Below, in pieces: positions 3,725-12,558 of a stretch of DNA of 32,059 bases. The stretch's first letter is position 1. Every line of letters begins with the position of its first letter. Both the position numbers and the translations under genes were made by a program. Under the pieces are notes generated by a model. The model saw only the letters and a list, made by a program, of their open reading frames with translations, was not told where the DNA came from and did not search any database. Source of the stretch: Bacteroidales bacterium (GTDB lineage: Bacteria > Bacteroidota > Bacteroidia > Bacteroidales > UBA932); assembly GCA_017399905.1 (NCBI GenBank), contig JAFQAR010000004.1, positions 1-32,059 on the forward strand. The letters run 5' to 3'.

Positions 3725-3973
3725 TGCAGAAAACGTGGAATGATGGAAGCATCAAACTGCAAATAGCACTGAAAAGAGAAGAAACACCCTTTATTGATAC
3801 GCTTTGAGTGTTAAGAAACAATAAAAATGTTAAATCTTCACCTTTTAGAATGCACCCTTAAAGGTTATGACCATATTTCTGACTTATTACTCGCAAAATA
3901 TTGAGTAATAACTGGTTGTAAATACTCTGGTTGTAAGGCGATCGATGAGTTTGATTTCAGCACATTGAATCAG

Positions 3974-5425
3974 ATGGGTCATTATGCATTTGCTTCCAGC
4001 GGTATCGTAAGCGTGACTATTCCTGAAGCAATGGATGCTGTACCTTATGGTGCTTTCAGTGGATGTGAATCCCTTGAAACTGTTGTCCTTCATTCAGGTG
4101 TGTCGGAAATCGGATACTATGCCTTCGGCAGCAACCGTGATAATTATAATGAAAAATATTCGGCATGTATAAATCTTAAGAACATTGATCTTACAAATGT
4201 TAAATCTTTGGGTGAAGGCGCATTCTTTGGCTCAGGTTTGACCGAGGTGACCATTCCTAAGGCAGTAACGAAGATTCCGGAATCTGCTTTCTGCGCTTGT
4301 GCTTCGTTGGCAACAGTAAATCTTCATGATGCTGTGACGTCAATAGGAAGAGATGCTTTCGGCTCTTACAGTTTCTATGATTCTGAAACAGGAGAAGAAT
4401 ATACTTTGTCATGCTCAAGCCTAAAGAATATAGATCTTCCAGAGAGTCTTATTGTGATTTATGACAATGCTTTCTCTGACTCGGCAATCGAAGGCGAATT
4501 GATAGAAGGAACAAAGATAGTTGCTCTTGATATTCCGGCTGGTGTGTCTGATATCAGATATGGTGCTTTCAGAGGTTGTATGAATCTTGCGGCAGTGAAG
4601 ATGAATACATCTGATGTCCCTGAAGGTGAAAACATGTTCCCATCTGCGACTGTGATTTATGTTCCAGCAGATGCGGTTGAAACATACAAATCTTCAGATT
4701 GGGGATATTATACGATTCTCCCGTATGATATGATGTCTGTCAGTCTCGGACTTACAGTAGCGCTTGGAGACGAAGTCACTTATTCTGACGGTTATTTCAA
4801 TGCGCCGATGAGTGTTACTGTTACAGGTGATGATGCTAATCTTTCAAATGTCGATGAGTATGGATATTATGTCAAGATTCTTAACAGATGGGGAGAAGCA
4901 GAGATGGAGTATTACCCTGTTGATGCTTTGAACGTGGCGACAGAAACGACATTTACCATATATTCGGAGTATGTCTCATCTGATTATGAAAATCATAAGG
5001 CTATAGTTTCTGCCAATATAGGCGCATATGTCAGAATTGATGATGACACCGTGGTTACATATTCAAATACCCCTGTGGAAGTCGTTTACGACAAGAAGCC
5101 TTCTGTAAAGTTTACAGACGTCACCACTTCAGTTGATGGCTCGGTCAATTTTGAACTTACATATGAAGTTGAAGGAGCTTACTGGATTTACAATGAGCAA
5201 CTCAATAAGGAAGGCAATGGCTATTTCAGCATGTCGTCAGTCTATATTGAGGATGGAGTGAATACGACTTCCGGATCATGGGATGTTTATGAAACTCCTG
5301 CGGACGGATACATCTATTTTTATTATTATGACAGAAATTATGTAGACTATACATCGAACTTTGTCCATCTTTCAATGGATGCGGATTCTGTAGTATCTGC
5401 TGAGATAGTGGATTCGATGGAATAG
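3974..5425 (+). CDS. BspA-like LRR_5 surface protein, 5'-truncated
   Basis: The protein has about seven or eight leucine-rich repeats of the BspA/LRR_5 type (for example SVTIPEAMDAVPYGAFSGC, EIGYYAFGS, TEVTIPKAVTKIPESAFCAC) over the first 240 residues or so. A beta-rich C-terminal region follows that I do not recognise. Such proteins are normally exported and bind host or matrix ligands. The repeat pattern does not begin at the first ATG (3974): it continues upstream in the same open frame (GCKAIDEFDFSTLNQ) back to a TGA at 3902-3904. Within that extension there is no ATG, no signal peptide and no repeat-free N-terminus. The gene has therefore lost its 5' end, probably when the sequence to the left was inserted, and is likely non-functional or expressed only as an unexported fragment. 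The stop is one base from the end of the convergent lnt gene. Confidence 0.75.
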   Translation: MGHYAFASSGIVSVTIPEAMDAVPYGAFSGCESLETVVLHSGVSEIGYYAFGSNRDNYNEKYSACINLKNIDLTNVKSLGEGAFFGSGLTEVTIPKAVTKIPESAFCACASLATVNLHDAVTSIGRDAFGSYSFYDSETGEEYTLSCSSLKNIDLPESLIVIYDNAFSDSAIEGELIEGTKIVALDIPAGVSDIRYGAFRGCMNLAAVKMNTSDVPEGENMFPSATVIYVPADAVETYKSSDWGYYTILPYDMMSVSLGLTVALGDEVTYSDGYFNAPMSVTVTGDDANLSNVDEYGYYVKILNRWGEAEMEYYPVDALNVATETTFTIYSEYVSSDYENHKAIVSANIGAYVRIDDDTVVTYSNTPVEVVYDKKPSVKFTDVTTSVDGSVNFELTYEVEGAYWIYNEQLNKEGNGYFSMSSVYIEDGVNTTSGSWDVYETPADGYIYFYYYDRNYVDYTSNFVHLSMDADSVVSAEIVDSME

Positions 5426-5442
5426 GTCACTTCTTTGTGACC
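5425..5442. terminator. Small hairpin between convergent BspA-like gene and lnt
   Basis: GGTCAC (5425-5430) and GTGACC (5437-5442) form a 6-bp stem with a six-base loop. It spans the last base of the BspA-like gene and the last codons of lnt. No strong T-run follows on the plus strand. It may act as a weak bidirectional terminator where only one base separates the two genes. Confidence 0.35.
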
Positions 5443-7052
5443 GATTGCACTGCGAGTGCGAGAAGCATGAGCAGGAAGACAAAGGTGCAGATCCTTCCGG
5501 TTATGTCGCCGTGGCTTACAAAGAATGTTATGTCGTCGCGAAGCGGAATCTTGCCTTCTATCACAGCCGGCTCCCACCAAGGGGTCGGCTGCTGTATTTC
5601 TCCGGTCGGGGTGATTATCGCGCTCACGCCTGTGTTCGCGCAGCGGGCGATTGCGCGGCGTGTCTCTATTGCACGGAGTGATGCGTAGCTCAGATGCTGC
5701 CGGTAGCCGGGTGTGTCCTTCCACCATGCATCGTTGGTTATTATGGTCATTGCACGTGCGCCTTCGAGTATATAACCGGTGTAGTATTCACCATATACTG
5801 ATTCATAACATACGGCGCAGCCTAATGGAATTGACCTGTCTCCGTCCTTTACATTCAGAAGGCTGATACCGTCCTGTCCTACGCACCTTCCCATCACGCC
5901 GCCGAGCATGTCGTCGATCGGACAGAATATCCTCGGATATGGCGTATGCTCTACCGCTACGACAAGCTTGCTCTTGTGGAATATCTGCGTATCTGCACTG
6001 CCGTCAACCATGAGGGCTGAATTGTGTGATTCCACCCACATTCCGTCAGCGACCTTGCGTGCAGTGTATGACGGTGCATCAGGAGAATAGATATAGTCAT
6101 ATGTTGAAGCTCCGAAAAGCATGGATACATGCGGGTAGCTTTCCAGGAAATTCACGAATCCCTTCCATGTCTGGCTGCGCTGGTATTCTCCGCAGATGAC
6201 TCCTCCGGTGAATGTCTCCGGAGCTATGAGGAGAAGGGGAGCGGCTGTGCTGTCGTTTTTCCTCCCTTTCATCGATTTCTCAGCCATAGACAGGAGGATC
6301 CCGTTCTGCTGGGCCTGGGTCATAGCCTGGAACTTGTTGTAAGGGTCTATGTTGGGCTGGACGATGAGGACCTCGAGCTGTTCTCCCTCTTCCATTGAGC
6401 CGCGATATTGCCTTTCTGTAACGAAAGATACGGCAGGAGGAGCAAGGAAAAGCATGCATAGACCGAGTGCTGCAGCTGACTTCGCCTTTCCGTTCCAGCT
6501 GAACAGGCTTCCGTCCGACAGGCTGACAAGCAGGCCGAATATGCTCAGGTTGCATGCCCAGATCCAAAGTGAACCGCCGAGTGTTCCGGTGAACTCATAC
6601 CATTGTATCGCCCATGTCGTCCTGGCAAACGAGTTTCCGAGCACAAGCCATGGCCATGAAATTTCGGCATCAAAGTAGAAGCGCTCCCATGCTATCCATG
6701 CCGTCATCAGGAATATGTATGGCAGGGAACCTGAGAACCTTTTCTTGCTGAGGCGGAAAAGCCCGAAGACCAGCGACATCTGAAGGGAGTTTGCAAAGAT
6801 GGCGAACAGGCCTCCGCCGACGGTTGCGTTGCATACCCAGAAGGTCGTGAATGTGTTCCAGAGCACAAAGGCGGAATAGTGATATACCCATATGCGTTTC
6901 CTTCCCTGCAGGTCTGCAATCCTTTCCATACAAAGCAGCGGAACAATTCCGAACAAGGCTAGGAAGCCTGTATGAGGAACAAGAAACGGGACGGACATCA
7001 TTGCTGCGAACAGCACTACTAGTCCCCATATGAGCATATTTTCTCTTTTCAT
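5427..7052 (-). CDS. lnt: Apolipoprotein N-acyltransferase (Lnt)
   Basis: Lnt transfers an acyl chain from phospholipid to the N-terminal cysteine of lipoproteins in the inner membrane, the last maturation step before sorting. The 541-residue product has about six N-terminal membrane segments (to about residue 210), a periplasmic nitrilase-fold domain and a final membrane helix (CTFVFLLMLLALAVQSV). The catalytic triad is visible: E279 in IAPETF, K362 in FHKSKL and C415 in CAVCYES, with the conserved Glu two residues after the Cys. NDAWWKDTPG and the RAIETRRAIARCANTG block also fit. The start at 7052 (MKRENML) is chosen over 7079 because the likely -7 element of its promoter (7077-7084, minus) lies across the longer start. 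The gene is divergent from the exporter operon. Confidence 0.93.
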   Translation of the reverse strand: MKRENMLIWGLVVLFAAMMSVPFLVPHTGFLALFGIVPLLCMERIADLQGRKRIWVYHYSAFVLWNTFTTFWVCNATVGGGLFAIFANSLQMSLVFGLFRLSKKRFSGSLPYIFLMTAWIAWERFYFDAEISWPWLVLGNSFARTTWAIQWYEFTGTLGGSLWIWACNLSIFGLLVSLSDGSLFSWNGKAKSAAALGLCMLFLAPPAVSFVTERQYRGSMEEGEQLEVLIVQPNIDPYNKFQAMTQAQQNGILLSMAEKSMKGRKNDSTAAPLLLIAPETFTGGVICGEYQRSQTWKGFVNFLESYPHVSMLFGASTYDYIYSPDAPSYTARKVADGMWVESHNSALMVDGSADTQIFHKSKLVVAVEHTPYPRIFCPIDDMLGGVMGRCVGQDGISLLNVKDGDRSIPLGCAVCYESVYGEYYTGYILEGARAMTIITNDAWWKDTPGYRQHLSYASLRAIETRRAIARCANTGVSAIITPTGEIQQPTPWWEPAVIEGKIPLRDDITFFVSHGDITGRICTFVFLLMLLALAVQSVTKK

Positions 7053-7076
7053 AATCCGTGAACACTGAACTTGGCA

Positions 7077-7084
7077 CAAAGATA
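7077..7084 (-). promoter_or_regulatory. Probable -7 element for lnt
   Basis: On the minus strand the sequence reads TATCTTTG, matching TAnnTTTG, 24 bases upstream of the lnt ATG at 7052. A clear -33 TTTG is not seen at the expected distance. It lies back to back with the plus-strand element at 7098-7105. Confidence 0.5.
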
Positions 7085-7097
7085 TGAATAATTTTAC

Positions 7098-7105
7098 TAC
7101 CTTTG
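7098..7105 (+). promoter_or_regulatory. Probable -7 element for the LysE-to-PqqD operon
   Basis: TACCTTTG matches the Bacteroidetes TAnnTTTG element and lies 39 bases upstream of the ATG at 7145. The best -33-like sequence (TTGG at 7071-7074) is too far upstream for the usual spacing, so only the -7 element is well supported. The element rules out a start at the in-frame TTG 7103. Confidence 0.5.
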
Positions 7106-7144
7106 TCTGTTTGCTGTTATTGCGTAAAGGAGAACATTGCAGTT

Positions 7145-7792
7145 ATGTTTGTAGATTTGCTTAAAGGATTTCTCGTAGGAATGTGTGCGTCGGCCCCTAT
7201 CGGTCCGATAGCCATCCTTGTCGTGCAGAAGTCCCTGAGCAAGGGGCACAAGGCCGGATTCGTCTCGGGACTCGGTGCAAGTGTAGTGGATACCCTTTAT
7301 GCATCAATCGCCATTTTCGCCCTTGCGTTCGCCCAGAAGTTCATTGAGGACCATCAGAGCCTCATTCTGCTAGTAGGAGGGGCTGTGCTCATAATCGTGG
7401 GCGTGTCAATGGCTTTTTCAGATCCGTTCCGGAAGATGAAGGCGGACGGCGAATCATCCGTTTCGCCTAAGGATTTCGGTCAGGCTGTCGCTATGGGCCT
7501 CTCAAATCCTATGGCCATCTTCGTGATGTTCACCCTTTTTGCTTTCTTCGGACTTGCGGATGATTCTCCTCATAACTGGAAAGTGGCACCTATCATCCTT
7601 TCGGTCAGCCTCGGCTCAGTTACATACTGGTTCAGCATGTCGTGGCTGCTGAGCCGTTTCAGGTCCAACTTCAGGATGAGGACGATATTGTGGATAAGCA
7701 GGATAACTGGAGCATTGATTGTAATAATAGGCATAGCCTTGCTCGGGCAGGGACTTTTCAATGTCGCTTTCCGGGGCATGCCGATAATATAA
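7145..7792 (+). CDS. LysE family translocator
   Basis: This is a 215-residue integral inner-membrane protein with about six hydrophobic segments. The N-terminal motif CASAPIGPIAILVVQKSL and the mid-protein SNPMAIFVMFTLFAFFG match the LysE/RhtB family, which exports amino acids or related small molecules; the substrate here is unknown. The ATG at 7145 is used because the longer frame (TTG 7103) overlaps the promoter element. It is the first gene of a seven-gene unit, and DUF362 follows after 4 bp. Nothing links its substrate to the genes behind it. Confidence 0.82.
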   Translation: MFVDLLKGFLVGMCASAPIGPIAILVVQKSLSKGHKAGFVSGLGASVVDTLYASIAIFALAFAQKFIEDHQSLILLVGGAVLIIVGVSMAFSDPFRKMKADGESSVSPKDFGQAVAMGLSNPMAIFVMFTLFAFFGLADDSPHNWKVAPIILSVSLGSVTYWFSMSWLLSRFRSNFRMRTILWISRITGALIVIIGIALLGQGLFNVAFRGMPII

Positions 7793-7796
7793 AGCT

Positions 7797-8942
7797 ATGG
7801 AAAAGTCAAAAGTATTCTTCACAGACCTGAGGACCGTGCCAGGTAACGATCTTCTCACAAAGCTTGAGAGACTGATCAGAAGAGCCGGTATAGCCGACAT
7901 TGATTTCAAGGACAAGTTCACCGCGATCAAGATTCACTTCGGTGAGCCCGGTAACATGGCATATATCCGCCCTAATTATGCGGCGCGTGTCGTTGATGTA
8001 ATACGTTCACTCGGAGGAAAACCCTTCCTCACCGACAGCAATACCCTTTATTCCGGTGGACGTTCAAATGCGGTGGATCATCTGGATGCTGCAATGGAGA
8101 ACGGTTTCAACAGAATCGGTGCCCATGCTGACGTGATAATTGCCGACGGACTGAAAGGTACCGATTACAAGGAGGTTCCATGTGGCGGAAGCTATTGCCC
8201 GTCTCCGAAGATCGGTGCGGCCATAGCTGATGCGGACATCGTGATTTCGATGAACCACTTCAAGGGACATGAACAGAGTGGCTTCGGCGGAGCTCTCAAG
8301 AATCTCGGAATGGGATCTGCGAGCGTCGGCGGAAAGCTCGAGCTTCACTCGTCATCGCAGCCTTGCATTGATGTAGAAAATTGCATCGGATGCCGTATCT
8401 GCGAGAAATACTGTCGTCACGATGCTGTGAAGGTTGTTGACAGGAAGGCTGTCATAGATTATTCGAAATGTGTCGGATGCGGCCAGTGCGTTGCGGTCTG
8501 CCAGAAGTCGGCTGCGGTGGTGAAGGACTATGACACTTCGGAAGTCCTCAACAGCAAGATTGCGGAATATGCGTATGCTGTAGTGAACGGTAAGCCTTCT
8601 TTCCATATCAGCTTCATCATGAATGTGTCTCCGAACTGCGACTGCTGGAACCATAATGATGCGGCACTTGTTCCGGATATCGGAATAGCTGCCTCATTTG
8701 ACCCTGTAGCTTTGGATTGTGCTTGCGCCGATATGGTCAAGGCTGCTCCAAGCCTTAAGGGCAATGCCATCGCAGACAAGGATACAGCCCACGGCCATGA
8801 CTGCAGCTGCGGATGTGATCCGCATCATAAGGGTGATGACAAGTTCCGCATCGTTCATCCTGATACGAATTGGGAGGCCGGTGTCGAGTACGGTGAGAAG
8901 ATAGGACTCGGATGCCGTGCTTATGAATTGATTAAAGTTTGA
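7797..8942 (+). CDS. DUF362 domain protein with two [4Fe-4S] ferredoxin motifs
   Basis: The 381-residue protein has an N-terminal DUF362 region (KIHFGEPGN near residue 46, then DSNTLYSGGR and NHFKGHEQSGFGGALKNLGMG) and a bacterial ferredoxin insert. Two CxxCxxCxxxC motifs are complete: C196/C199/C202/C206 and C225/C228/C231/C235, as needed for two [4Fe-4S] clusters. No signal peptide or membrane segment is apparent, so a cytoplasmic location is expected. A second part of DUF362 follows (NVSPNCDCWNHND, then DPVALDCACADMV). Residues 332-345 hold an unusual His/Cys-rich stretch (HGHDCSCGCDPHHK) that may bind metal. The physiological reaction of this family is not established; an electron-transfer role is inferred from the clusters. 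It sits 4 bp behind the exporter gene and 4 bp before the PASTA gene. Confidence 0.88.
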   Translation: MEKSKVFFTDLRTVPGNDLLTKLERLIRRAGIADIDFKDKFTAIKIHFGEPGNMAYIRPNYAARVVDVIRSLGGKPFLTDSNTLYSGGRSNAVDHLDAAMENGFNRIGAHADVIIADGLKGTDYKEVPCGGSYCPSPKIGAAIADADIVISMNHFKGHEQSGFGGALKNLGMGSASVGGKLELHSSSQPCIDVENCIGCRICEKYCRHDAVKVVDRKAVIDYSKCVGCGQCVAVCQKSAAVVKDYDTSEVLNSKIAEYAYAVVNGKPSFHISFIMNVSPNCDCWNHNDAALVPDIGIAASFDPVALDCACADMVKAAPSLKGNAIADKDTAHGHDCSCGCDPHHKGDDKFRIVHPDTNWEAGVEYGEKIGLGCRAYELIKV

Positions 8943-9762: not shown

Positions 9763-10872
9763 ATGAGTCAGCAATATTTCGGTTTTGATGAGGATCCGGT
9801 AGAGGATCTTGACCTGACTGGTGCCGGTGATGAGGTGGCCTACGAGGATGAACAGCAGGAAATGTTCGAGCACTATCGTTTCGATATCGATAAAGGCCAG
9901 ACACCGATGCGTGTCGACAAATATCTGTCGACACATATGGAGTATACATCCAGGCATCGTATCCAGCTGGCTATCAAGGCCGATTATATACGTGTCAACG
10001 ATAAGGTCGTAAAGGCTAACTATATCGTCCGTCCTGGAGATGTGGTGACGTTCGTCATGCCATATCAGAGACGTGGCCTTGAGATCCTACCGGAGGATAT
10101 CCCGTTGAATATAGTGTATGAGGACGATGACGTCCTTGTGCTGAACAAGGAAGCCGGCATGGTAGTCCATCCGGGCCACGGACATTTCAACGGAACGCTT
10201 GTAAACGCTCTTGCGCACCATTTAGGCATATCCCAGGGCCCAGATGCCCAGGACGAAAGGATGGGCGTGCTTGTGCACAGGATCGACAAGGATACGTCAG
10301 GACTGCTCGTGGTCGCGAAGAACGATGAGGCCCAGCTGGACCTCGCCAAGCAGTTCTTCGTCCATTCCATAGAACGGAGATATGTCGCCATAGTATGGGG
10401 AAATCTCAAGGATGATGAAGGTACGATCACAGGAAATATCGGAAGAGACCCTAACGACAGGATGAGGTTCAAGGTCTTTCCGGACGGAGACTACGGAAAG
10501 CATGCGGTAACCCATTACCGTGTCCTTGAGCGTTTCGGTTACGTGACGGTTGTGGAATGTCGTCTTGAGACAGGAAGGACACATCAGATCAGGGTGCATT
10601 TCAATTGGATCGGCCACCCTCTGTTCAATGATGAACGTTATGACGGTTCTGAGATCAGAAAGGGTACCATATATGCCAGATACCGTCAGTTCATAGAGAA
10701 CTGTTTCCGCATACTTCCGCGTCAGGCTCTGCATGCCAAGACTCTCGGCTTTGTGCATCCGCGCACGAAGCAGATGGTACGTTTCGATTCCGAACTTCCG
10801 GCAGATATGCAGGCACTTATCGACAAGTGGCGCAAATATGCGGAAAACATGATTCCGGAACTTGAAGACTGA
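9763..10872 (+). CDS. rluD: RluD-family 23S rRNA pseudouridine synthase
   Basis: The 369-residue enzyme converts specific uridines of rRNA to pseudouridine. After an acidic N-terminal extension of about 40 residues comes an S4-type RNA-binding domain (RVDKYLSTHME...RIQLAIKADYIRVNDKVVKANYIVRPGD, about 50-100). The RluA/RluD catalytic domain follows. The catalytic Asp is D175 in VHRIDKDTSGLLVVAKND, where Ile replaces the commoner Leu after Arg. GRTHQIRVHFNWIGHPLFNDERY is the conserved substrate-cleft block. The RluD rather than RluA/RluC assignment rests on the S4 domain and the PASTA neighbour, so the exact target uridines are not certain. Spacing to the genes on either side is 12 and 4 bp, consistent with cotranscription. 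Confidence 0.9.
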   Translation: MSQQYFGFDEDPVEDLDLTGAGDEVAYEDEQQEMFEHYRFDIDKGQTPMRVDKYLSTHMEYTSRHRIQLAIKADYIRVNDKVVKANYIVRPGDVVTFVMPYQRRGLEILPEDIPLNIVYEDDDVLVLNKEAGMVVHPGHGHFNGTLVNALAHHLGISQGPDAQDERMGVLVHRIDKDTSGLLVVAKNDEAQLDLAKQFFVHSIERRYVAIVWGNLKDDEGTITGNIGRDPNDRMRFKVFPDGDYGKHAVTHYRVLERFGYVTVVECRLETGRTHQIRVHFNWIGHPLFNDERYDGSEIRKGTIYARYRQFIENCFRILPRQALHAKTLGFVHPRTKQMVRFDSELPADMQALIDKWRKYAENMIPELED

Positions 10873-10876
10873 TGCC

Positions 10877-11797
10877 ATGATGCAGAAAAGGACATATAAG
10901 GTGGCAGGACATCTGTTTTCTGTCGTTATGGATGCCGGATCGTTCATCTGGCAGAAGATGGAGGAGTGCTATGGCCCGTTTGAGGTCAGCTCCGATACGG
11001 AGGGCAGTCAGGTCTTCTCCCTGGTTGTGACTGACGGCATCGGACAGGAGAATCTTACTCCCGTCTATTCCAATGTCGGTGACCATGAACCGGGCTTCAT
11101 TGACCTGAATGTCTTCACTACTGATGACGGAGGTCATCTTTTCGAATTCATCCAGCCTATGTCGGAGACCGTCAACGGAAGGATGAAGATCGATGGCAGG
11201 TTTGCCGAAGCTGTCCTTGTCCTTGATGGGAGCCGCATGCACAGGTGGCTTACTTTCAATGTAGCTGTGGATTTCTGCTTCCTCCTGTCTACTTCGTCAC
11301 TCGATACGGTGCTTACTCATGCGTCTGCTGTCCTTTATGAAGGCCGGGCATATCTCTTTCTGGGAAAGAGCGGCACCGGAAAGAGTACTCACAGCAGGAT
11401 GTGGCAGGAGTCTCTTGACGGAGTGGAACTTATGAATGACGACCATCCCGTGATAAGGGTGGATGCCGACGGAAAGGCTTATGCATACGGATCCCCATGG
11501 AGCGGGAAGACACATTGCTATAAGAATGTTTCTGCACCGCTCGGAGGTGTGATAAGAATAGTCAGGGCCCCTCATAACAAGGCAAGAAGGCTTTCACCTG
11601 TCGAGGCATATGCTTCACTTATGACAAGTTGTTCAGGCATGACATGGGATGAAGACCAGGCTCATGGAAGGGACAGGACAATGCAGAAGATAATTTCTGT
11701 GACACCATGCTGGGCCATGGAATGTCTTCCTGAACCTGATGCAGCGTCTGTATGTATGAAGGCTGTCACAGCCCCTTTCAAGGAGGATGAAGCATGA
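10877..11797 (+). CDS. HprK-like serine kinase / PEP carboxykinase-fold protein
   Basis: The 306-residue protein has an N-terminal alpha/beta region of about 140 residues that I do not recognise. A P-loop kinase domain of the HPr kinase/ATP-PEP carboxykinase type follows: HASAV, Walker A GKSGTGKST (163-171), NDDHPVI with paired acidic residues D188/D189, and GSPWSGKTH (205-213). True HPr kinases carry a different N-domain, and no ptsH-like partner is in view. Homologues of this arrangement sit next to a signal-peptidase-like S24/S26 protein and a PqqD-like protein, as here, and HprK-like proteins occur in some lasso-peptide and other modified-peptide clusters. The substrate is therefore suspected to be a peptide, but this is inference. 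ATG 10877 is chosen over the in-frame TTG 10862, which overlaps the RluD gene. The stop overlaps the next start by four bases. Confidence 0.78.
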   Translation: MMQKRTYKVAGHLFSVVMDAGSFIWQKMEECYGPFEVSSDTEGSQVFSLVVTDGIGQENLTPVYSNVGDHEPGFIDLNVFTTDDGGHLFEFIQPMSETVNGRMKIDGRFAEAVLVLDGSRMHRWLTFNVAVDFCFLLSTSSLDTVLTHASAVLYEGRAYLFLGKSGTGKSTHSRMWQESLDGVELMNDDHPVIRVDADGKAYAYGSPWSGKTHCYKNVSAPLGGVIRIVRAPHNKARRLSPVEAYASLMTSCSGMTWDEDQAHGRDRTMQKIISVTPCWAMECLPEPDAASVCMKAVTAPFKEDEA

Positions 11798-12240
11798 AGA
11801 AGATGGTGATGCCGAATGACGTGCTGCTTCCCGCCGTGGGTGAGATTGTGGCCGAAGGTGGGTCAGTCACACTCAGGACCAAGGGTATGAGCATGATGCC
11901 TTTCATCATAGGTGACCGGGACTGCGTACTCCTTGTCAGACCGGAAGAGCTGAAGGTGGGGGATATTGTTCTTGCAAAGGTTGCGAACGGAGCTTTCGTG
12001 CTGCATCGTGTTTTTGAGGTGGATGGTGACTCTCTTGTGCTCATGGGTGACGGAAATCTCGAAGGAAAGGAGAGATGCGGCAGAGGCGATGTCCTTGCTC
12101 AGGCGGTTGCCATAATAAAGGAGGATGGCAGGGAAATAGACTGCACGTCTGCAGGACATCTTCGCAAGGCCAGGATCTGGCGTCTGCTGATGCCGTTGCG
12201 CCGTTATCTGCTGGCTGTTTACAGAAGAATAATAAAATGA
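11794..12240 (+). CDS. S24/S26 family (signal-peptidase-like) peptidase with a Ser-His dyad
   Basis: The 148-residue protein has the S24/S26 serine-protease core. The nucleophile is S33 in RTKGMSMMPFI. LKVGDIVLAKV precedes H71 in FVLHRVFEV, and GDGN (85-88) matches the conserved GDN box. At the position where LepB-type enzymes have a catalytic Lys, this protein has His, as in SipW/Sec11-type peptidases, so a Ser-His dyad is likely. No N-terminal membrane anchor is present. The C-terminus is strongly basic and amphipathic (RIWRLLMPLRRYLLAVYRRIIK) and could associate with the membrane. The ATGA overlap with the kinase gene indicates translational coupling. It may cleave the leader of a modified peptide or act as a regulatory protease; the substrate is unknown. 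Confidence 0.8.
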   Translation: MKKMVMPNDVLLPAVGEIVAEGGSVTLRTKGMSMMPFIIGDRDCVLLVRPEELKVGDIVLAKVANGAFVLHRVFEVDGDSLVLMGDGNLEGKERCGRGDVLAQAVAIIKEDGREIDCTSAGHLRKARIWRLLMPLRRYLLAVYRRIIK

Positions 12241-12247
12241 AAAGCAT

Positions 12248-12514
12248 ATGAAGATAGTGGAAGGATTCAGGTTGCGTGACGTTATGGGACAGGCAACTGT
12301 TATAGGAGAAGGAGTCGGACAGGTCAACTTCAACAAGCTGGTGACCTTGAATGAGTCGGCGGCCTATCTGTGGAAGTCTGTGGAGGGAAAGGAATTCGAG
12401 ACCGCGACACTGGCTGGACTCCTGATTGAGAAGTATGGTATCGATGAGGCTCTTGCCCTCAAGGATGCGGAGTCGATTTCGACGCAATGGAAGGAAATAG
12501 GTCTTGTCGAATAA
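12248..12514 (+). CDS. PqqD-like peptide-binding protein
   Basis: The 88-residue protein matches the PqqD fold: a short beta-strand N-terminus (FRLRDVMGQATVIG), the core signature LNESAAYLWK (about 34-43), and a C-terminal helical part (FETATLAGLLIEKYGIDEALALKDAESISTQWKEIGLVE). PqqD proteins and domains bind leader peptides and present them to modifying enzymes in ribosomally made peptide pathways. It is the last gene of the operon, 7 bp after the S26 peptidase gene, and its TAA touches the terminator stem. No precursor peptide or radical SAM enzyme is adjacent, so the substrate must be encoded elsewhere, or the trio has another role. Confidence 0.82.
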   Translation: MKIVEGFRLRDVMGQATVIGEGVGQVNFNKLVTLNESAAYLWKSVEGKEFETATLAGLLIEKYGIDEALALKDAESISTQWKEIGLVE

Positions 12515-12558
12515 ATGCAAAAGGAGAGAAGCTAATCAAGCTTCTCTCCTTTTGCATT
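12514..12558. terminator. Perfect 20-bp hairpin between convergent PqqD-like gene and rng
   Basis: Arms 12514-12533 and 12539-12558 are perfectly complementary over 20 bp with a five-base loop (AATCA). The stem is AT-rich at its base with a GAGAAGCT core. It follows the PqqD stop directly and includes the last nine codons and the stop of rng on the other strand. A bidirectional intrinsic terminator is the simplest reading. Confidence 0.85.

Follow-up and report, generated by a model that had tools for sequence, protein, structure and literature searches.

A three-gene cassette in the genome of a Bacteroidales bacterium is likely to be the modification core of a system for ribosomally synthesized and post-translationally modified peptides (RiPPs), one that works like the linear polyphosphorylated peptide (LPP) systems of Bacillota and acts in trans on small precursors with a Y-x-x-P (YxxP) leader. 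The cassette occupies positions 10877..12514 of a 32,059-nucleotide stretch (GenBank assembly GCA_017399905.1, contig JAFQAR010000004.1), here called the window, which makes up the entire contig C6 of an 81%-complete genome; its relatives are Bacteroidales. Three genes follow one another on the forward strand: an LppK-like HprK/PEPCK-type P-loop kinase (10877..11797; 305-306 aa), an LppS-like S26/S24-type peptidase of the SipW/Sec11-like Ser-His type (11794..12240; 148 aa), and an LppB-like discrete RiPP recognition element (RRE) of the PqqD type (12248..12514; 88 aa). The kinase open reading frame (ORF) starts with two adjacent ATG codons at 10877 and 10880, the length of 305 aa being counted from 10880, and a TTG at 10862 is likewise in frame. 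The kinase and peptidase ORFs overlap by 4 bp and the PqqD ORF begins 7 bp further on, which confirms the tight three-gene cassette described in the original prediction, a reading of this DNA that preceded our analysis. That reading also placed a strong terminator behind the trio, and a hairpin with a 20-bp stem is indeed found there (12514..12558; -33 kcal/mol, z = -9.59), and none of 200 shuffled sequences was as stable. The hairpin is a probable bidirectional terminator and forms the boundary between the trio and a convergent ribonuclease G-like gene.

We then examined the three protein families and their conserved residues. The PqqD protein matched Pfam PF05402 (E = 7e-11) and the peptidase matched Peptidase_S24 (PF00717, E = 3e-6). 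The kinase gave weak, sub-cut-off matches alone in Pfam, mostly to P-loop families, and HprK-related matches below the cut-off in NCBIfam. Above the cut-off, neither library assigned it to a family with an unrelated substrate, the outcome against which the original prediction had warned. It belongs to the same HprK-like kinase class as the HprK-related kinase A system, which has a PqqD-type partner, but it scored 18.8 bits against the model for that kinase (TIGR04352), where the cut-off is 200. In an alignment of 33 kinases (A1) the invariant residues are H147, the Walker A residues S164-G165-G167-K168-S169-T170, the NDD triplet N186-D187-D188, and G204, P206, W207, S208 and G209. The profile of this alignment matched ATP-PEPCK among PDB sequences (E = 3e-4), the superfamily that includes HprK. 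The peptidase alignment (A2, 32 sequences) has invariant S33, H71, D86 and E93. The Ser-His label given earlier therefore stands, with D86 and E93 as two candidates for the acid residue, and the best PDB match of the profile is SEC11C (E = 1e-5). For the RRE (A3, 35 sequences), the invariant positions are N35, F50, A70 and D73, and the lasso RRE TfuB1 (6jx3) is the best PDB match (E = 1e-7). Two of these four, N35 and D73, match LppB N33 and D70 by spacing and align with the same TfuB1 residues, so they appear to be equivalent to the LppB pair. In the LPP report, N33 and D70 contact the YxxP motif, and the crystal structure places them on its Pro and Tyr (PMC13381572).

Next, we drew gene maps for 118 kinase loci. 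The 99 genomes of the same family supplied 38 of them, and the others are the best 80 of at least 293 kinase relatives confirmed in a wider contig scan. The wider-scan loci come from Prevotella, Phocaeicola, Bacteroides, Alloprevotella and rumen Bacteroidales metagenome-assembled genomes (MAGs), and include three MAG loci labelled Fibrobacter. All 118 were selected by their kinase, some contigs are incomplete, and the same species may be present via both sources. Partners were counted on the kinase strand, the peptidase and RRE together within 4.5 kb. The peptidase is near the kinase in 103 loci, the RRE in 101 and both in 94, with the tight order kinase-peptidase-RRE in 78; three loci have no partner at all. 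This linkage is far beyond chance. The three genes likely act together, as the original prediction supposed, and the survey of relatives that it proposed finds them usually together rather than routinely separated. In locus L054 (7937-9448, forward strand) the kinase and the S26 peptidase are fused in one 503-aa ORF, which also backs the view that the two work together. Among the 99 family genomes the kinase occurs in 38 and the RRE in 40. A phylum-level draw of 395 genomes contained the core kinase (E<=1e-30) in five: the window's own genome, two others from its order, and a pair from another family of its class.

Many relatives have more than the trio. An ABC exporter is near the kinase in 73 of the 118 loci and an NTP_transf_5-type gene in 28 (identities assigned with Pfam on representative proteins), and all five kinds of gene occur together in 15. 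Because relatives' loci often add these two genes, we take the window trio to be a pared-down version of a larger cassette; neither an MsbA-like exporter nor an NTP transferase lies beside it. The original prediction, in which a compact system would phosphorylate and cut a substrate encoded elsewhere, has good genomic support, with eight candidate substrates in the window's own genome. One correction to it is that in relatives the trio usually sits in a larger cassette with the exporter and sometimes with NTP_transf_5.

To find candidate substrates without supervision, we took the 912 small ORFs that surround the 118 cassettes and do not fall inside a larger ORF, and clustered them without any motif. 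One large family emerged, with 24 ORFs in 21 of the 118 loci, all but one of them on the kinase strand (23/24). Its members are YxxP-leader proteins of roughly 36-110 aa with an acidic core; an example is MKENYLEPSIEIIEVELEQGFAQSRQTPDLEDGGIENW. Searched with a hidden Markov model (HMM) of the family, the 118 loci gave 32 places, of which 29 are on the kinase strand (binomial p=1.3e-6). Of these places, 24 are within 3.5 kb of the cassette (p=5e-4), a figure that is partly circular, as the seeds were taken near cassettes. The same model found no precursor in the window itself (best match E=0.88), and five neighbouring window proteins that we scanned included no cyclase or radical SAM enzyme, in agreement with the absence of all three noted earlier.

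We aligned 56 unique precursor sequences anchored on [YF]xxP, so the Tyr and Pro are fixed by selection of the sequences. The consensus is Y-E-A-P-x-[MI]-E-[VI]-[IV]-E-[VIL]-x-[LV]-E-G-[VG]-[LIF]-[CLA]-x-S, with Glu at Pro+3 in 34 sequences and Val or Ile at Pro+4 in 47. Ser stands at Pro+16 in 38 of the 56, and 53 have a Ser somewhere in Pro+15 to +18. The remainder of the protein is 26% acidic and 3% basic, and 23 of the 56 have a Trp within the last four residues. Across 32 precursor genes the codons for the fixed Tyr, Pro, Glu, Val and Ser vary synonymously, which fits selected proteins. None of eight precursors matched NCBIfam and none of seven matched Pfam, so mining by such profiles may miss this family.

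The precursors follow the kinase from genome to genome. At E<=1e-3 precursors are present in 29 of the 99 family genomes, namely 28 of the 38 with the kinase and one of the 61 without it (Fisher 3e-15, related genomes being treated as independent in this and the following tests). When the ten genomes that fed the model are removed, the counts are 18/28 and 1/61 (7e-11). An order-level draw outside the family gave 8/40 kinase-positive against 3/251 kinase-negative genomes (8e-6), with distant kinases included and with some genomes that might coincide with named loci in the precursor model. In the genera g4, g11, g19, g22 and g23, which have both states, precursors occur solely alongside the kinase; g15 has a single exception, genome G051.

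The search for small ORFs or a conserved leader elsewhere, as advised in the original prediction, was productive in the window's own genome. Eight precursors are present, on contigs C9 (C9:92509), C34 (C34:14023, 26651) and C35 (C35:70989, 160596, 169127, 177808, 185421), and in every case the next gene downstream is a large lipoprotein ORF whose TKT...WxxGD-type motif is reminiscent of fimbrillins. A cassette-type ABC exporter gene, unlinked to the trio, is found at C35:89282-90910. It scored 677.7 bits against a profile of cassette exporters, on a scale where 34 held-out cassette exporters scored 445-759 and the next ABC protein tested from this genome scored 243. An own genome without an exporter, where the best match had 30% identity to one relative, was considered and rejected by this profile. 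A search with the window peptidase found the peptidase once, in the window.

The pairing with lipoproteins extends beyond this genome. Counting its own and other family genomes, the gene after the precursor has both a lipobox and the motif in 30 of 36 distinct loci (one of the 36 has no downstream sequence), against 39 of 847 other genes of >=250 aa within the 118 loci. We built the motif pattern ourselves and loosened it after a first look, and it was identical for both sets. The 35 downstream proteins share an aligned N-terminus, MKK...C...TKT...W..GD...AxYP, and it is a safe description, from sequence, that the partner is a large lipoprotein with a fimbrillin-like N-terminus. Their domains include FISUMP, BspA-type LRR and Ig-like, with glycoside hydrolase 20 in one, and NCBIfam Mfa1-type models matched two of the 35. 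This pairing points to a product that works with these lipoproteins at the cell surface. A more specific version is conceivable but doubtful: RiPP machinery would be reused for surface assembly across the genome, with one trans-acting kinase-peptidase-RRE set maturing the scattered YxxP peptides. Every peptide would serve only the fimbrillin-like lipoprotein that follows it, and the phosphorylated (perhaps glycophosphorylated) acidic peptide would be a partner, plug or tag of a surface structure and not a free natural product. Within the window's own genome, C35:160-186 kb (L196, L197) contains a series of large lipoprotein genes whose products have fimbrillin-like N-termini and differ in their C-terminal parts, one with a sub-cut-off exo/endonuclease-phosphatase match and others CotH-like by eye.

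Two records from other genera link precursor and cassette. A Phocaeicola massiliensis plasmid record (OY725995.1) has, in one direction, precursor, lipoprotein, PqqD, NTP_transf_5, ABC_tran, kinase and peptidase. The precursor is MKENSIETYEAPKVEIIEVEVEKGFATSGGGENGNWTD, and the lipoprotein, of 1089 aa, has the motif. Numbered within the stretch 63069-76873 of this record, the precursor is at 291-407 and the cassette at 3946-8297. A Butyrivibrio fibrisolvens plasmid (Bacillota) carries an LPP-like locus where polysaccharide genes are present too and the order is kinase, a 57-aa YVKP ORF, PqqD and S24/S26. This ORF has a C-terminal Trp and matches the Bacteroidales precursor profile weakly; the accompanying kinase, peptidase and PqqD score 137, 91 and 66 bits against the Bacteroidales profiles.

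Both records bear on the view that the YxxP proteins serve the downstream lipoproteins as small structural or regulatory partners and are not substrates, and that the trio acts on another peptide or protein. We find this unlikely. It would suit the window's own genome, where no precursor is near the trio and the tight partner is in every case the motif-bearing lipoprotein just behind, and it would suit the one genome (G051) that has a precursor and no detected kinase. However, YxxP is the very motif that LPP and lasso RREs bind according to the LPP report (PMC13381572), and 28 of the 29 precursor-bearing family genomes have the kinase. Furthermore, the Phocaeicola precursor is part of the cassette gene run, and the Butyrivibrio ORF, with a different core, lies between kinase and PqqD in an 18-kb stretch with no fimbrillin annotated.

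Besides the independence assumed in the Fisher tests, a number of observations weigh against an LPP-like trio acting in trans on these precursors. Genome G051, of genus g15 and 99% complete, has a clear precursor ahead of a lipoprotein (C17:11843, L180), and neither kinase nor RRE was detected in it. Conversely, 10 of the 38 kinase-positive family genomes have no precursor at E<=1e-3, and outside the family the same is true of 32 of the 40, many of whose kinases are distant. Leader patterns taken from LPP fared poorly in the window and the 118 loci: the YxxPx(V/L/I)xxHQ type had no match, and three looser patterns stayed at the level of the reversed-sequence control (44 vs 41, 76 vs 81 and 15 vs 13). 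On the lipoprotein side, the label "fimbrillin" is not proven and rests mainly on the motif. Pfam Mfa_like_1 (PF13149, fimbrillin-like) is the commonest match, yet it is found in 8 of the 35 downstream proteins, and the 1089-aa Phocaeicola lipoprotein matches no Pfam family, Mfa_like_1 included. In the window's own genome PF13149 is found in one of the eight precursor-adjacent proteins; eight PF13149 regions there are above the cut-off, and seven of them fall at 163-183 kb of C35, within runs of lipoprotein genes headed by a precursor. Because the parts in this genome are scattered, their cooperation can only be inferred. Finally, the genome has a second PqqD-NTP_transf_5-kinase set, without a peptidase, at C35:121-123 kb (L033:9967-12232, forward strand), and this set may be a rival candidate for serving the eight precursors.

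The neighbors of the second set are Poly_export and Wzz/AAA_31 genes, and L056 and L061 are arranged similarly. L056 additionally has a precursor and a motif-bearing lipoprotein downstream. Such Poly_export and Wzz/tyrosine-kinase-type neighbors are what one would expect if the trio were a regulatory protein-kinase module tied to surface polysaccharide export rather than to RiPP maturation, with the PqqD-like protein as a mere adaptor. We consider this very improbable, as most mapped trios lie outside that arrangement and a regulatory kinase needs neither a leader peptidase nor an exporter. Proximity to such genes is also found for maturation systems, since LPP and paeninodin clusters of Bacilli too are reported to lie often within capsule loci (PMC13381572).

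We compared the preferred system, an LPP-like core with dispersed precursors, to LPP as described in the main text of the report that defines this RiPP class (Nat Commun 2026; PMC13381572). The LPP gene set (lppA/K/B/S/D/N) includes an SpI-like peptidase (LppS), a discrete RRE (LppB), an HprK-like kinase (LppK), an NTP transferase (LppN) and an MsbA-like exporter (LppD). LppK puts several phosphates on core Ser3, leader cleavage by LppS is RRE-dependent, and the biological role is given as unknown. The HprK-like kinase, the discrete RRE and the SipW-like Ser-His peptidase are common to LPP and to our system, and neither has a cyclase. The NTP transferase and MsbA-like exporter are shared too, in the cassettes of relatives, as are a YxxP leader, a Ser about 15-16 residues past the Pro and, in part of the cases, an association with polysaccharide loci. 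The hosts differ, being Bacillota for LPP and Bacteroidales, with Fibrobacter-labelled MAGs, here. The leader consensus is YxxPxVLxHQxIxFETxxS in LPP and about YxxPxxEVVEVxxEGxLxxS here, and the Ser is at Pro+15 in the LPP consensus against Pro+16 in 38 of our 56 sequences. Unlike in LPP, the precursors here are often dispersed and multi-copy and are usually followed by a large lipoprotein gene, and the window trio sits apart from NTP transferase and exporter genes. Judged from sequence, then, the window has counterparts of three LPP proteins, and a YxxP precursor belongs to the system and not to the window stretch. As the LPP leader consensus was not found in the window and the 118 loci and exporter and NTP transferase are not beside the trio, we call this an LPP-like variant and not a member of LPP.

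The original prediction had tied HprK-like proteins to lasso peptides. Paeninodin/pseudomycoidin-type lasso clusters do share the HprK-like kinase, a split PqqD RRE, the NTP transferase and the ABC exporter (PMC13381572, PMC7533575), and that much of the link stood, but the link to LPP-type linear peptides is at least as strong (PMC13381572). With these four genes in common, the cassette could in principle be a lasso-peptide cluster whose cyclase was lost or scattered. The peptidase, however, is of the S26 type and not the transglutaminase-like B2, and no macrolactam synthetase was found near the cassettes. Nine of the 38 kinase-positive genomes have Asn_synthase (PF00733), in no case within 40 kb of the kinase on one contig, and none was found in the window's own, 81%-complete genome at E<=1e-5. 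With no cyclase gene near the cassettes, we do not regard them as lasso clusters, and a lost or scattered cyclase seems to us an exceedingly remote prospect.

By analogy with the published LPP biochemistry (PMC13381572), the Bacteroidales system would work as follows. The PqqD-type RRE would bind the YxxP leader of the small precursors encoded elsewhere in the genome, and the HprK-like kinase would phosphorylate a Ser just past the leader, at about Pro+16. The Ser-His S26 peptidase would then remove the leader from the RRE-bound substrate. The acidic core peptide would leave via the MsbA-like ABC transporter, for which the window's own genome has the unlinked cassette-type gene, and the NTP_transf_5 protein, where present, may decorate the core peptide further.

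This would extend LPP-type machinery from Bacillota to Bacteroidales, with Prevotella, Phocaeicola, Alloprevotella and rumen and gut MAGs as hosts. The Discussion of the LPP report restricts the class to Bacillota, and the term "bacteroid" is absent from its main text; its peptidase network is "predominantly" Bacillota, so its supplement may contain members of other phyla (PMC13381572). We found no description of this cassette or of the YxxP-lipoprotein pair in Bacteroidota in the literature (PMC7533575, PMC10352776, PMC13381572), with preprints, most subscription papers and supplements outside the search. Nor did the literature searched yield the precursor family, its dispersal or its lipoprotein link. 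The precursors supply candidate substrates for a widespread uncharacterised gene set (at least 293 kinase relatives), and the recurrent lipoprotein partner is a first lead on function, pointing to surface proteins.

Upstream of the trio, an RluA-family pseudouridine synthase gene (9763..10872, forward strand; TIGR00005, PF00849) serves as operon context only. It ends just 4-7 bp before the kinase start, so that a longer operon or transcript probably has the trio at its 3' end. According to the gene maps, the genes upstream of the cassette differ among the mapped relatives.

We also looked at other recurrent neighbors. No radical SAM or lasso genes were recognised by eye among the recurrent neighbor clusters, of which only the ABC and NTP clusters were profile-scanned. 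Cluster c26, of C10-type peptidase-like genes, lies near some Prevotella and Fibrobacter loci. It was dropped as a candidate substrate for its rarity (5 of 118 loci). Also set aside was c8, a 145-aa protein that looks secreted (seven loci) and mostly comes in a fixed gene order with neighbors that by eye are RpoD- and HtrA-like. YxxP precursors accompany the kinase, peptidase and NTP genes of two loci from MAGs labelled Fibrobacter, L099 and L121, with c26 genes close by; no RRE was found in either with the Bacteroidales profile. Locus L205 (MT835698.1), labelled Bacteriophage sp., resembles a bacterial chromosome by eye; its kinase, S26 and PqqD genes are accompanied by a 561-aa ORF that occupies the place of the exporter. 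Within one genus, two genomes have a kinase ORF that runs on without a break from an IspG-like ORF ahead of it, in L042 (7890-10067, reverse strand; 725 aa) and L043 (6056-8242, forward strand; 728 aa). These are apparent in-frame fusions to a housekeeping enzyme, and L088, too, has a long kinase frame (726 aa).

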